Part shown: positions 1,932 through 53,765 of the stretch, in pieces
Position numbering within the stretch: position 1 is the stretch's first letter
Layout of the letters: every line of letters starts with the position of its first letter
Assembly: GCA_028875225.1 (NCBI GenBank)
Contig: JAPPFB010000002.1
Coordinates: forward strand, 62,001-126,000
DNA from: Chloroflexota bacterium
GTDB lineage: Bacteria > Chloroflexota > Dehalococcoidia > Bin125
DNA length: 64,000 nucleotides
Direction of reading: 5' to 3'
Notes under the pieces: model-generated
Database searches by the model: none
Told to the model about the DNA's origin: nothing
The model's input: only the letters and a program-made list of their open reading frames with translations
Made by a program: the position numbers and the translations under genes

Positions 1932-2852
1932 GTGAACGATCCCGATCCCAATCGTGATCCGCTGCCCGAGTCCGAGGTGCCCTGGCAGACCAGGGTTGTC
2001 CGCAGCCGCGCCTTCGCCTGGCTCGAGATGTGCCGGCCCACCACCGGAACCTGGCTGCTTTTCTCGAGCGCGCTGATGGTCCTGACGGCGGCCGAGGGCT
2101 CGCTCGAGTGGGGCCTGCCGTTTCAATACGGGGCGATGGTCGTCGCCTTCGCGTACGCGGCTGCCTTGATCGGCAATGCGCTGGATGCCGAGATCGACTC
2201 GTCCAGCCGTCTGATGCGGCCGATTCCAGCCGGCAAGGTCACGATCCGGGGTGCGCTCATTGCCGCGGCGGTTCCCGTTGCCCTCGGCGCCGCGATCGGG
2301 TTCGCCACTGACTGGCGAGTCGGCGTGATCGGTCTGGCCATGCTCGCCGCCAGTGGGCTGTACAGCGCGGCCTGGCGCGGATCGCCGCTGGGCTTCCTGG
2401 CCTTCGCGCTGATCGGCGTGCTTCTGCCGCTCGGCGCCATTCAGACCGCCGACGAGGGATTCTCCAATGCTCATCTGATCTGGGTCATTCCGGTCGGAGC
2501 CTTGACCGGGGCGGCCACATTCATGATCTACAAGCTGCCCGACTTCGAGATTGACGACTTCGACGGCGCACGCTCGATCCTGCACTGGCTCGGGATCGAC
2601 ACGGCGATTTCGATGTCCTGGGCCATACTCGCCGCAGCGCTGGCGCTTGCGGCCGCGTCGATCAATCTCTCCGGCGGCAACCTCGCCTGGCTGCTCGGTC
2701 CGCTGCTCTACATCATCATCGCCGGACTGTTCTGCATCTGGATCCTGATGCGGCGCGTTTCGGAAGTGAGACTTCGACTGCAACGTTGGCTGATCGTGCC
2801 GCCGGTGCCGATCTTGCTGATCGGCTGGTTGGGCGCCGCCGCTTCCGCCTGA
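1932..2852 (+). CDS. UbiA-family prenyltransferase-like membrane protein
   Basis: This 306-residue protein has about eight or nine hydrophobic segments. It shows the two Asp-rich landmarks of UbiA prenyltransferases: a first motif GNALDAEID (81-89) followed by RLMRPIPAG, and a second motif DFEIDDFDGAR (204-214). The first motif is shorter than the usual NDxxDxxxD and lacks the ND pair. The family transfers polyprenyl chains to aromatic or other acceptors at the membrane; the substrate here is unknown. The frame is open upstream, so the start (GTG 1932) is chosen from a -10-like element and because about 30 polar residues before the first helix are normal. ATG 2028 is the alternative. Confidence 0.7.
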   Translation: MNDPDPNRDPLPESEVPWQTRVVRSRAFAWLEMCRPTTGTWLLFSSALMVLTAAEGSLEWGLPFQYGAMVVAFAYAAALIGNALDAEIDSSSRLMRPIPAGKVTIRGALIAAAVPVALGAAIGFATDWRVGVIGLAMLAASGLYSAAWRGSPLGFLAFALIGVLLPLGAIQTADEGFSNAHLIWVIPVGALTGAATFMIYKLPDFEIDDFDGARSILHWLGIDTAISMSWAILAAALALAAASINLSGGNLAWLLGPLLYIIIAGLFCIWILMRRVSEVRLRLQRWLIVPPVPILLIGWLGAAASA

Positions 2853-2918
2853 CCACCCCTGTGGTCTCGGCAATCCGTCAATCCGCTAGGTTGATCGCGC
2901 AGACTCCAGGAGCGCGTG

Positions 2919-4487
2919 ATGTCCGAACCGACCAACTGGCAACCCGAAGTCGATGAGCTGTATCTGCGTCGCGAACTGGCGCTCAAGATGGGCGGCGAGG
3001 AACGCGTCAACCGCCAGCGCGAGCTGGGCAAACTGACCATCCGCGATCGCATCGACGCGCTGGTCGATCCGGGCAGCTTCCACGAAATCGGCGGGCTGGC
3101 GGGCTACGGCGCGTACGAGGATCGAGCGTTCAAGGACTTCAAACCGCTGCCCTACATCGGCGGACTGGCCAAGGTTGATGGTCGTTCCATCGTCGTGGGC
3201 GGCGAGGACTTCACCGTCGGCGGCGGCGCGGCCGACATCAGCACCCAGGAGCGATTCAAGAGCCTGTTCCTGGCCGACATGGCGCGCGAGTACCGCGTGC
3301 CCCTGTTCGTGTTCCACGAAGGCGCCGGCGCCAATGTCGCCGCCGAGGGAGACGGCCACGGCCACCTGCCCAGCAGCTTCGACGTGTTCGGCCCCGACAT
3401 TCTCGCCGGACAGGAAGTGCCGCTCGTGTTCGGCGTTTCGGGCGCGACTGCCGGCGGCGTCGCGGCGCGGGCGATGCTCGGCCACTTCACGGTGATGACG
3501 CCGCAGGGCGCGCTCTTCGCCGGCGGGCCGCCGCTCGTCAAGCGCGCGCTCGGCCAGGAAGTGACCAAGGACGAGCTCGGCGGGCCCGACATTCACGTCG
3601 GCCAGTCCGGCGCAATCGACAACCGGGCCAAAGACGAGTTTGACGCGATCGAGCAGATGAAGGCGTTCCTCAGCTACATGCCGCAGAACGTCTACCAGCA
3701 GCCGCCGTTCAAGGCGACCGACGATCCGCCCGACCGCGAGGAGGAGGCGCTGCTCAGCATCATCCCGCGCAAGCGGACCAGGCCGTACAACATGCTCAAG
3801 CTGATCAAGCTCCTGGTCGACGACGGCGAATTCTTCGAGATCAAGCCGGAGTTCGGCACGACAGTGCACACGCTCTTCGCCCGCGTCGGCGGGTATGTCG
3901 TTGGCATCGTGGCCAACAATCCCAGCATGCTGGCAGGCGCGATGACCGCCGATTCTGCCGACAAGCAGGGACACTTCGTCGAACTCTGCGACCACTTCCA
4001 TATCCCGATCGTCTTCGTCGCCGACGTGCCCGGCTTCATGCTCGGCCCGCAGGCCGAAGCGACGGGCACCCTGCGTCACGGGATGCGCGCCTACTGGGCG
4101 ACCTACCTCGCCACGGTGCCCGTCTTCACCGTGATCACGCGCAAGAACTACGGCATGGCCGGACAGGCGACGGCCAACGTCGGCACGATGAACTACCGCG
4201 TCGGCTGGCCCTCGGGCGATTGGGGCTCGATTCCAATCGAGGGCGGCGTCGCCGCGGCCTACCGCCGCGAAATCGAGAGCGCGCCCGATCCCGACGAGCG
4301 ACGGCGCGAGATCGAGGAGCACCTGCTCCAGTTCCGCAATCCGTTCCGCACCGCAGAGGCGTTCGGGATTGAGGACATCATCGACCCGCGCCAGACTCGG
4401 TCCTACATTCATCGTTTCCTCGAGCACGCTTACGACACGATCTCGACCAACCTCGGCGTCAAGGGCAAAGCGGGGGTGCGGCCTTAG
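2919..4487 (+). CDS. acyl-CoA carboxylase carboxyltransferase (beta) subunit
   Basis: This 522-residue protein has the double crotonase-like fold of propionyl/methylcrotonyl/geranyl-CoA carboxylase beta subunits. The N-terminal half holds VSGATAGGVAARAMLGHF and the acyl-CoA site; the C-terminal half holds GIVANNP, FVADVPGFMLGPQAE and KNYGMAGQATANVG. It would transfer CO2 from carboxybiotin to an acyl-CoA. Length is typical. A CCAGGAG ribosome site is six bases before ATG 2919. No biotin carboxylase or carrier subunit is adjacent, so the partner lies elsewhere and the acyl specificity is undetermined. Confidence 0.85.
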   Translation: MSEPTNWQPEVDELYLRRELALKMGGEERVNRQRELGKLTIRDRIDALVDPGSFHEIGGLAGYGAYEDRAFKDFKPLPYIGGLAKVDGRSIVVGGEDFTVGGGAADISTQERFKSLFLADMAREYRVPLFVFHEGAGANVAAEGDGHGHLPSSFDVFGPDILAGQEVPLVFGVSGATAGGVAARAMLGHFTVMTPQGALFAGGPPLVKRALGQEVTKDELGGPDIHVGQSGAIDNRAKDEFDAIEQMKAFLSYMPQNVYQQPPFKATDDPPDREEEALLSIIPRKRTRPYNMLKLIKLLVDDGEFFEIKPEFGTTVHTLFARVGGYVVGIVANNPSMLAGAMTADSADKQGHFVELCDHFHIPIVFVADVPGFMLGPQAEATGTLRHGMRAYWATYLATVPVFTVITRKNYGMAGQATANVGTMNYRVGWPSGDWGSIPIEGGVAAAYRREIESAPDPDERRREIEEHLLQFRNPFRTAEAFGIEDIIDPRQTRSYIHRFLEHAYDTISTNLGVKGKAGVRP

Positions 4488-36209: not shown

Positions 36210-36899
36210 ATGCCCATTGTCATGATCGAGTGGCCCGACATCCTCGGCCCGACCTCGGAGATCGCGCTCGAGGAATATCTGCTCGCCATGATCGTCTCGC
36301 TCGCCGCCTCGATCGCGATCTATGTGCTCTATCTCATCTTCTACCGCGACTGGCAGCGCGGCGCGGGCATCCACCGGGTCTTCCTGCTCGCCGGACCCGC
36401 GATCACGCTGCTCTTTATCGCCATTCAGTGGTCGCTGCCGCTCTCGCTCGGCCTGCTCGGTGCGCTCTCCTTCGTCCGCTTCCGCACGCCGATCAAGGAC
36501 CCCGCCGAAATCGGTTACCTGCTCGTCGTCATCGCCTCGTCAATCGGCGCGGCGACCTACAACTACGAGCTGATCGGCATCCTCTTCGCCGCCGTCGCCC
36601 TGGTCCTGGTCGGCCAGCGCATCTTCGGCTCGACCGGCCTGAGAGGCCTCACCGCCGGCAGCCGCGACCTGATCATCACCATGCCCTCAGACGACTACGC
36701 CCAACACGAGACCGAGCTGTTGCGTTTCCTGCGAGCCAATCTGCGAGGCTTCAAAATCGCCTCATCCACGCAGAACGCCGGAACCGCCAGCCTCCACGCC
36801 AACTTCCGCCGTTCGACCTACGACGATCGCTGGGCCGAGTTCCGCTCCGCCCTCGAATCCACCGTCGCCCCAGCCTCGGTCGACCTGTACGTCGGCTAG
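36210..36899 (+). CDS. DUF4956 membrane protein
   Basis: This 229-residue protein has about four N-terminal membrane helices and the family signature LSLGLLGALSFVRFRTPIKD (84-103), followed by a soluble C-terminal alpha/beta domain of about 80 residues (DLIITMPSDDYAQHETELLRF onward). A GGAGAAG ribosome site precedes the ATG. Its constant neighbours in other genomes are VTC-domain and CotH proteins, as here. Its function is unknown; a membrane partner for the VTC protein is inferred. Confidence 0.85.
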   Translation: MPIVMIEWPDILGPTSEIALEEYLLAMIVSLAASIAIYVLYLIFYRDWQRGAGIHRVFLLAGPAITLLFIAIQWSLPLSLGLLGALSFVRFRTPIKDPAEIGYLLVVIASSIGAATYNYELIGILFAAVALVLVGQRIFGSTGLRGLTAGSRDLIITMPSDDYAQHETELLRFLRANLRGFKIASSTQNAGTASLHANFRRSTYDDRWAEFRSALESTVAPASVDLYVG

Positions 36900-36921: not shown

Positions 36922-37019
36922 GGGAGCGGAAGGGGACCGGTGTCTTCCACAGTCTTCAAAACTGATGCGGGGCGGTCCGCACCGTCTCGGGTGGGTTCGA
37001 CTCCCATGCGCTCCCGCCA
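36922..37019 (+). tRNA. selC: selenocysteine tRNA (anticodon TCA)
   Basis: The 98-nt gene (CCA encoded at 37017-37019) has the unusual size and shape of tRNA-Sec. The acceptor stem is GGGAGCGG/GCGCTCCC, with seven good pairs and a G-G opposition at the eighth. The anticodon loop is CTTCAAA with TCA at 36956-56958 read as window bases 36956-36958. The variable arm has an 8-bp stem (CGGGGCGG with CCGTCTCG). The T-arm is GTGGG-TTCGACT-CCCAT. A TAACCT hexamer at 36907-36912 is a fitting -10. It would insert Sec at the UGA of the gene at 52221-53726. selA, selB and selD are not in the window. Confidence 0.95.
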
Positions 37020-52220: not shown

Positions 52221-53726
52221 CTAGAACTTCAGCACAATCTCCCGGCCCTGCCGCGTCTCCAGGTCCAGTTGCACGATGCGGTGGTTGTTGGTGTCCGCCA
52301 CCAACAGTGAGCGGCCGGGGCCGTTGGTCAGGCCGCCGGGTTCGTCGAGCTCGAGCTCGCTGAAGCTGCCCAGCATGTCGCCGTGGCCACCGACCAGCGT
52401 GTTGACGTTCTCGGTCAGCGGGTAGACCTGCTTGATCTTGTGGTTGAAGGTGTCCGCGACGTAGAGCTCGTCGCCGACGCGGGCGACGTCGAGCGGATGC
52501 TGGAGTTTCGCGACCGAGCGCCCGCCGTCGGCGTCGCCGAAGTGGAAGAGTCCGCCCTGACCGGTCTTGCCGATGAACGTCGTCGTCCGACCGTCGGGAT
52601 CCCAGCTAATCTCGCGCACGCCGCTGGACTCGGAGTCGGCGAAGGCGAGCCCGCTCGGGCCCGGCGCCAGGCCGGAGACCTGGGCCAGCTCGGACTGCAT
52701 CCGCGGACCGTCAACGATGCCCTCGCGGCCGGAGCCGCCCCAGGGGCCGACGTATGAGCCGTCGCCGGCGGCGTCGCCGAGCGGCATCCGCCAGATCTGG
52801 TGGATACCGGCCATCGCGATGTAGAGGTCGCCCTCATGGACGGCGACATCCCAGGGAGAGCTGAGCGCGGTGCGGATGGCCGGTTCGCCCGACGGCATCA
52901 TTCGCGCCTGCTCGCCGGTACCGGCGATCGTGGCGACGCTGCCATCGCGCAGATCGATCCGGCGCAGGGCGTGATTCTCGTTGTCGGCGACGAAGACATG
53001 GTCACCGACGATCTCGACGCCCTGGGGTTGGTTGTATTGCGCCTCGCCGGCCGGACCGTCGCTGAATCCGGCCTCGGAGCCGCCGATCACCTGCGACACG
53101 TTGCCGTCGATGTCGGCCACGATGATCCGGTCGTTGTTGCTGTCGGAGACGACGAGCCGACCCGACGCGTCGTCCCAGGCGACCTTGCCCGGGAAGGAGA
53201 GTGCGCTGTCGCGGCCGGTCTCACGGACCAGGCCGAGATTCTGGCGCGTCAGGATCTGTTCTGCTTCGTATTCGACCAGCCATCCCTCGATCAGGGGAGC
53301 GGCCATGTCCTCGGTCAGCTCGCCCTCGTGGATGCCGATCACATTGCCGCGCGGATCGATGAAGTAGAGCGTCGGCCAGGCCCGGGCGCCGAAGGTTTGC
53401 CAGTACTTGAAATCGGCGTCGTTGAGCACCGGGTGCTCAATCCGTAGACGCAGGATCGCCTGACGCAGGTTTTCGGTCTCGCGCTCGGTGGGGAACTTGG
53501 GCGAGTGGACCGAGACGATCTGCAGCGTGTCGGCGTAGCGGCGTTCAAGCTTCCGCAACTGCGGAAGCACGTGCAGACAGTTGATTCAAGCGTAGGTCCA
53601 GAAGTGCAGGATGAGCAGGCGGCCCTTGAAGTCGTCCATCGACATCTCGCGCCCGGTGTTCAGCCAGGTCATGCCGGCGGGAACGTCGGGCGCGGGCGTC
53701 TTGCCAAACGCGCGAGAGGTGGTCAT
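52221..53726 (-). CDS. Selenoprotein: thioredoxin-like domain plus NHL beta-propeller (UGA = Sec47)
   Basis: Read through one in-frame TGA (53586-53588), this is a 501-residue protein. The N-terminal thioredoxin-like domain (about 10-150) has HFWTYA-U-INC-LHVLP with Sec47 and Cys50, and the cis-Pro segment ARAWPTLYFID. Relatives (NHLRC2-like) carry Cys-Ile-Asn-Cys at this spot. Residues about 170-500 form NHL propeller repeats (GRLVVSDSNNDRI; VADNENHALRRIDL; VADTFNHKIKQV; VADTNNHRIVQL). GGAGAG lies eight bases before the ATG. The frame is conserved on both sides of the TGA, and a SECIS-like hairpin follows. Reading it as a stop would leave a 46-residue stub and an internal start lacking the redox centre. 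Confidence 0.88.
53549..53568 (-). promoter_or_regulatory. Bacterial SECIS-like hairpin after the Sec codon
   Basis: On the mRNA, an 8-bp perfect stem GCUUCCGC/GCGGAAGC closes a 4-nt loop AGUU with a G near its top. The loop is about 25 nt after the UGA, inside the usual 16-37 nt range for bacterial SECIS elements read by SelB. It also encodes LPQLRKLE. Confidence 0.75.
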
Positions 53727-53765
53727 AGGGGAATCTCTCCGACCATCGGGTGCTGTCGACTCAGA

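Follow-up and report, generated by a model that had tools for sequence, protein, structure and literature searches.

The window analysed here is a 64,000-nt stretch of a Chloroflexota genome (GCA_028875225.1, contig JAPPFB010000002.1, positions 62,001 to 126,000; Chloroflexota; Dehalococcoidia; Bin125), and the locus under study is a minus-strand frame (53726-52221) that begins with an ATG, ends in TAG and is interrupted by one TGA only (Table 1). As had been proposed from the sequence, this TGA (53586-53588) is codon 47 of the frame, and translation across it yields a continuous protein of 501 residues. A GGAGAG element (53740-53735) precedes the ATG by 8 nt, in agreement with the strong ribosome site that the original prediction had placed there. 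The predicted truncation was also observed: standard ORF calling returned only a GTG-started piece of 449 aa (52221-53570), from which the redox motif is missing. Residue 46, directly before the TGA codon, is Ala in the window gene (YA-U-INC); most relatives read C-U-INC or G-U-INC.

Table 1. Features of the predicted selenoprotein gene and the tRNA-Sec gene in the window
Feature	Coordinates	Strand	Basis
Complete predicted selenoprotein gene, 501 residues with Sec47, thioredoxin-like domain and NHL propeller	52221..53726	-	frame open except for one TGA; relatives; NHLRC2 match
TGA codon 47, predicted to be read as selenocysteine	53586..53588	-	TGA in Sec-form and TGC/TGT in Cys-form relatives
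TGT codon 50, second redox residue (UINC)	53577..53579	-	translation; invariant in alignment A2
SECIS hairpin CTTCCGC-AGTT-GCGGAAG, within the coding sequence	53550..53567	-	fold; pairing, covariation and shuffles; absent from Cys forms
Shine-Dalgarno-like GGAGAG, 8 nt 5' of ATG	53735..53740	-	sequence; GGAGAG or GGAGGG also in L005, L008, L012 and L014
Thioredoxin-like domain, residues ~10-155	53262..53699	-	Pfam Thioredoxin_8 at 35-129; in the model Sec47 directly before helix 48-63
NHL beta-propeller, residues ~174-496	52239..53207	-	Pfam NHL; strands in model; Foldseek
tRNA-Sec gene, predicted supplier of the decoding tRNA	36922..37019	+	ARAGORN; Rfam RF01852

Among 120 related genomes, every gene of the same genus and family that spans the codon (18, the window gene included) has TGA at this position, and so have G104 and G114 from other families; TGC occupies it in G116, G070, G093, G077, G107 and G043. 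The gene of G007 is split across two contigs, and the piece covering the codon likewise contains one TGA. The original prediction held that the TGA stands where relatives carry the first redox cysteine; the Cys homologues indeed have TGC or TGT at this position, and every relative examined has one of these codons or TGA. Across the class, a homologue at E <= 1e-60 was present in 93 of 393 genomes, with one-TGA and no-stop forms mixed. A scan of species representatives (one genome per species) with the pattern WTYxUINCxH yielded at least 117 stretches, and among those listed, 96 are full-length thioredoxin-NHL loci distributed over at least eight named phyla. By label, these loci belong to Chloroflexota (62), Gemmatimonadota (10), Actinomycetota (10), Thermomicrobiota (6), Methylomirabilota (2), and Acidobacteriota, Nitrospirota and Planctomycetota (one each, which may be mis-binned because most Sec-form loci come from MAGs), with three carrying no phylum. 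One Sec form (L122) belongs to a cultured relative, Thermomicrobium sp. CFH 73360.

Selection was estimated in 12 genes of the genus together with that of G017 (13 in all). The dN/dS was 0.096 on the upstream side of the TGA (44 codons) and 0.034 on its downstream side (60 codons), which indicates that both sides are coding and that the gene is not decaying. Together with the occurrence of TGA at this codon in 18 of 18 genes and of TGC/TGT in the Cys homologues, these low values exclude a chance TGA. A single in-frame stop in a single assembly would look alike if the gene were a pseudogene or the codon a sequencing error; however, this explanation is refuted by the identical TGA in independent assemblies from the genus, the family and other phyla, and it is also at odds with dN/dS values of 0.03-0.10, leaving it a practically negligible chance.

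The 18 nucleotides CTTCCGCAGTTGCGGAAG (53567-53550) begin 18 nt past the TGA and fold into a hairpin of 7 bp whose loop is AGUU. The minimum free energy of the 49-nt stretch is -16.0 kcal/mol; taken alone, the z of this single hairpin is modest (-1.73). As the hairpin stretch lies outside the pattern with which L069-L185 were collected, its conservation in these loci constitutes an independent test. In 71 distinct sequences, 88.3% of the hairpin cells were paired, compared with 81.5 +/- 0.7 after shuffling (0 of 500), and 41 cells were changed on both sides, compared with 14.6 +/- 2.9 (0 of 500), although these counts are not probabilities since the shuffles ignore relatedness. The covariation score of the same sequences was 0.257 against 0.132 for the shuffled ones, and slid versions of the helix scored far worse. 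Most informative is the pairing of the third position of a Leu codon with the first position of the next Lys/Glu/Arg codon, which occurs as T-A in CTT..AAG, C-G in CTC..GAG and G-C in CTG..CGG; similarly, a Pro codon covaries through its third position with the opening base of Arg/Gly (CCG..CGG, CCT..AGG, CCC..GGG). These compensatory changes fall at synonymous sites. In some lineages the register has shifted and the hairpin is kept, as with CCAGAGC/GCTCTGG in NC10 (L069) and L095. The hairpin is conserved only in TGA genes, and pairing falls to 41% of the corresponding cells in the Cys forms (n=26). The conserved hairpin in TGA genes is thus a bacterial SECIS element, and its 7 bp, its AGUU loop, in which one of the first two bases is G, and its distance of 25 nt from UGA to loop fit the bSECIS model.

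These data also bear on the reading in which the UGA is a true stop, such that the locus would encode a leader peptide of 46 residues and, from a separate restart at GTG 53570, a protein devoid of the active site. The 449-aa piece called by mechanical ORF calling is what such an arrangement would give. Nevertheless, purifying selection acts on the codons upstream of the TGA, the Cys forms run continuously across the codon, the thioredoxin fold requires both halves in the structural model, and the covarying hairpin is tied to the TGA, so that a true stop is very improbable.

The tRNA-Sec that had been reported 16 kb away was recovered both by ARAGORN and with Rfam RF01852 (68.2 bits; gathering score 47). 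It begins 23 nt past a plus-strand ORF of 229 aa (36210-36899) and stands apart from selA and selB, which are both on other contigs. SelB (C26:17551), SelA (C12:30545) and SelD (C23:272746), the absence of which the original prediction had named as evidence against itself, are all encoded in the window genome and all score above curated cut-offs. In addition, selD itself (L198, G000:C23:272746-273687, outside the window) holds an in-frame TGA at the usual Sec site (LARCGG-U-GSKFG), and the genome therefore carries at least two selenoproteins. Formate dehydrogenase was considered as a further selenoprotein of this genome and rejected, its best homologue containing no in-frame TGA.

Among the related genomes, selA was found in 32 of 33 with the Sec form and in 36 of 48 with the Cys form (Fisher p 0.012, which is only indicative because the genomes are related). 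The sole exception among the Sec-form genomes is G356 (91% complete), in which no selA match was obtained; in G017, tRNA-Sec, SelA and SelB are present and no SelD match exceeded the cut-off. These two missing genes are probably assembly gaps, with divergent genes as the alternative.

The relationship between the two forms was examined in a quick tree that comprises 43 Sec proteins and 27 Cys proteins and establishes neither the root nor the direction of change. The Sec/Cys label requires four changes on this tree, at least two of them forced by well-supported branches, compared with 21.6 for shuffled labels; thus, Sec for the most part follows the descent of the gene, and several switches between Sec and Cys have occurred. 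One Cys form, L060 of G167, is nested inside a Sec clade. It still reads PQLAK, only 1 of the 7 hairpin pairs is left (MFE -4.5), and no selA was detected in G167. L060 looks like a natural Sec-to-Cys reversion accompanied by SECIS decay.

In principle, a suppressor or variant tRNA could insert another amino acid at the UGA, such as Cys or Trp, and tRNAs with a UCA anticodon besides tRNA-Sec are known. Against it stand the canonical tRNA-Sec, SelA, SelB and SelD, the SECIS-like hairpin specific to TGA genes, the second TGA at the usual Sec site of SelD, and the decayed hairpin of a Cys form whose genome gave no selA match, and we regard such a reading as highly unlikely. At the sequence level, bacterial selenoproteins are recognized by an in-frame UGA aligned with a Cys of homologues, a SECIS hairpin shortly downstream within the coding sequence, and the presence of tRNA-Sec, SelA, SelB and SelD, and all of these were found here. 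By this computational evidence, we put the probability that the gene is an intact selenoprotein gene, with UGA codon 47 decoded as Sec, at about 95%; decoding would be carried out by tRNA-Sec and SelB under the direction of the hairpin beginning 18 nt further on.

An AlphaFold2 model of the protein, built from the window protein and 24 relatives with Cys placed for Sec, reached a mean pLDDT of 94.6 and a pTM of 0.93. The alignment to NHLRC2-like proteins suggested with the original prediction extends over almost the full length of the readthrough protein: human NHLRC2 (6gc1) was matched by phmmer over residues 12-493 (E 3.9e-99), and the plant SOQ1 lumenal domains were matched with E 2.1e-97 (7djj), the Foldseek TM-scores of the model being 0.92 (6gc1) and 0.93 (7djk). 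With NHLRC2 the window protein shares the architecture of a thioredoxin-like domain and a six-bladed NHL propeller; NHLRC2 differs in having Cys for Sec, an extra C-terminal domain and no SECIS-dependent decoding. In the model, the window protein ends after the propeller, and the C-terminal beta domain of NHLRC2 has been described as non-conserved (PMC6107167). SOQ1 likewise shares both domains, but it has Cys instead of Sec and, in addition, a HAD domain and a membrane helix (PMC6107167).

In NHLRC2, the CCINC motif sits in an inter-domain cleft that gathers conserved residues (PMC6107167), and Sec47 aligns with the second Cys of this motif (Cys-90, PMC6107167 numbering). Instead of the family motif CC(I/V)NC (PMC6107167), the window protein has A-U-I-N-C, with Sec for the second Cys and Ala for the first, and many of its relatives have C-U-I-N-C. 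Because the first Cys is Ala in the family of the window protein, the conserved core is U/C-I-N-C. Judged by its sequence, the window protein is a Sec variant of the NHLRC2/SOQ1 family and, by its motif, not a standard member. The closest solved thioredoxin-like protein of the SCINC type (motif: PMC6107167) is the C-terminal domain of mycobacterial DipZ (2hyx, 5cyy), which differs in lacking an NHL propeller and in having Cys rather than Sec. Classical thioredoxin is a single domain with WCGPC, whereas the window protein has YAUINC and a fused propeller, and the NCBIfam thioredoxin model gave it 12.6 bits against a cut-off of 96.8. No model of NCBIfam 20.0 exceeded its cut-off for the window protein, no PHROGs family was assigned to it, and the plasmid records contained only two homologues, both distant.

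In the proposed action, the Sec47 selenolate, at the N-terminus of helix 1, would face the cleft between the two domains and attack an oxidised sulphur of a partner or ligand that the face of the propeller holds; Cys50 would resolve the intermediate through an Se-S bridge, and a cellular reductant would reset the enzyme. We consider this the likely action, by a modest preference; any function beyond selenol/thiol redox chemistry in the thioredoxin-propeller cleft is inferred. Given Sec, the protein might instead remove or make some other modification on a ligand in the cleft, for example by seleno-peroxidase-like chemistry or adduct repair. The presence of UxxC with a conserved resolving Cys50 argues against such chemistry, UxxC with a resolving Cys being the classic disulfide-exchange motif, as does the fact that the next gene in several lineages encodes another thioredoxin-domain protein (PF03190). 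NHLRC2, however, is an essential protein of unknown function that was inactive in an insulin reduction assay, and DTT does not reverse the SOQ1-linked modification of plastid lipocalin (PMC6107167); because of these two results, non-disulfide chemistry retains an appreciable, if smaller, chance.

The original prediction also made the gene the last of a thiolase-DUF35-sugar-dehydrogenase run. Membership in such a functional unit was not supported: outside the genus, only G017 keeps the GSDH upstream of the gene and the amidohydrolase downstream of it, and operon context was therefore rejected as functional evidence. The authors of the NHLRC2 study found no operon conservation in 7 bacterial genomes and did not mention selenocysteine (PMC6107167). 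The gene directly after the Sec gene, on the same strand and mostly within ~50 nt where the gap was measured, encodes a DUF255/YyaL protein (PF03190, Cys form CHWCHVM) in 22 other Chloroflexota loci, and the order is the same in the Cys-form genome G167. Such genes after the thioredoxin-NHL gene are located, for example, at 2395-4479 (-) in L191, 2758-4803 (-) in L192 and 2128-4233 (+) in L196. The DUF255/YyaL protein is a possible functional partner of the thioredoxin-NHL protein; since the single DUF255 gene of the window genome (C22:259737) lies on the same contig ~134 kb past the window, this association is a lead only.

The exchange of Cys for Sec at exactly one position, in a family whose human member is essential, linked to disease and of unknown function, marks that position as the probable catalytic nucleophile. 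More broadly, Sec at this site spans at least eight named bacterial phyla and may be an old trait of the NHLRC2 family. The second Cys of CCINC in NHLRC2/SOQ1 would then act as a catalytic redox nucleophile, and eukaryotic NHLRC2 would be a redox enzyme whose substrate is yet to be identified; in bacteria, the protein might belong to the same pathway as the DUF255/YyaL protein that adjoins it in several lineages. We advance this wider proposal tentatively, at slightly less than even odds; NHLRC2 has been said not to carry out thiol-disulfide exchange. The Sec form could serve as a more reactive homologue for substrate trapping.

Beyond the original prediction, the analysis adds the SECIS hairpin with its compensatory changes and the occurrence of the Sec form of the NHLRC2 family across several phyla. 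Wherever the Sec form occurs, standard gene calling truncates the protein at its active site, and its role consequently stays hidden. The term 'NHL' is absent from five reviews and surveys of prokaryotic selenoproteins (PMC13188914, PMC9312934, PMC12013277, PMC1088965, PMC2398784), and the literature on selenoproteins yielded nothing relevant with NHL repeat, NHLRC2, SOQ1 or SAR202. Reviews of prokaryotic selenoproteins list several thioredoxin-like UxxC families, the Cys homologues of which are widespread (PMC13188914, PMC2398784). These families (thioredoxin, thioredoxin-like 1, thiol-disulfide isomerase-like and the redoxin family) share with the window protein a Sec at the first CxxC position of a thioredoxin-like fold; as far as their descriptions allow comparison, they differ in that none is mentioned with an NHL propeller. 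Some members of the Sec-form thioredoxin-NHL family may already be listed under 'Trx-like 1', 'Thiol-disulfide isomerase-like' or 'Redoxin family'. The species-representative scan also included shorter Sec genes (L097, L158, L171 and L114) with WTYGUINC and ~107 residues after Sec, which lack the NHL propeller and form a separate Sec-containing thioredoxin-like subfamily, some of them with a good hairpin downstream.
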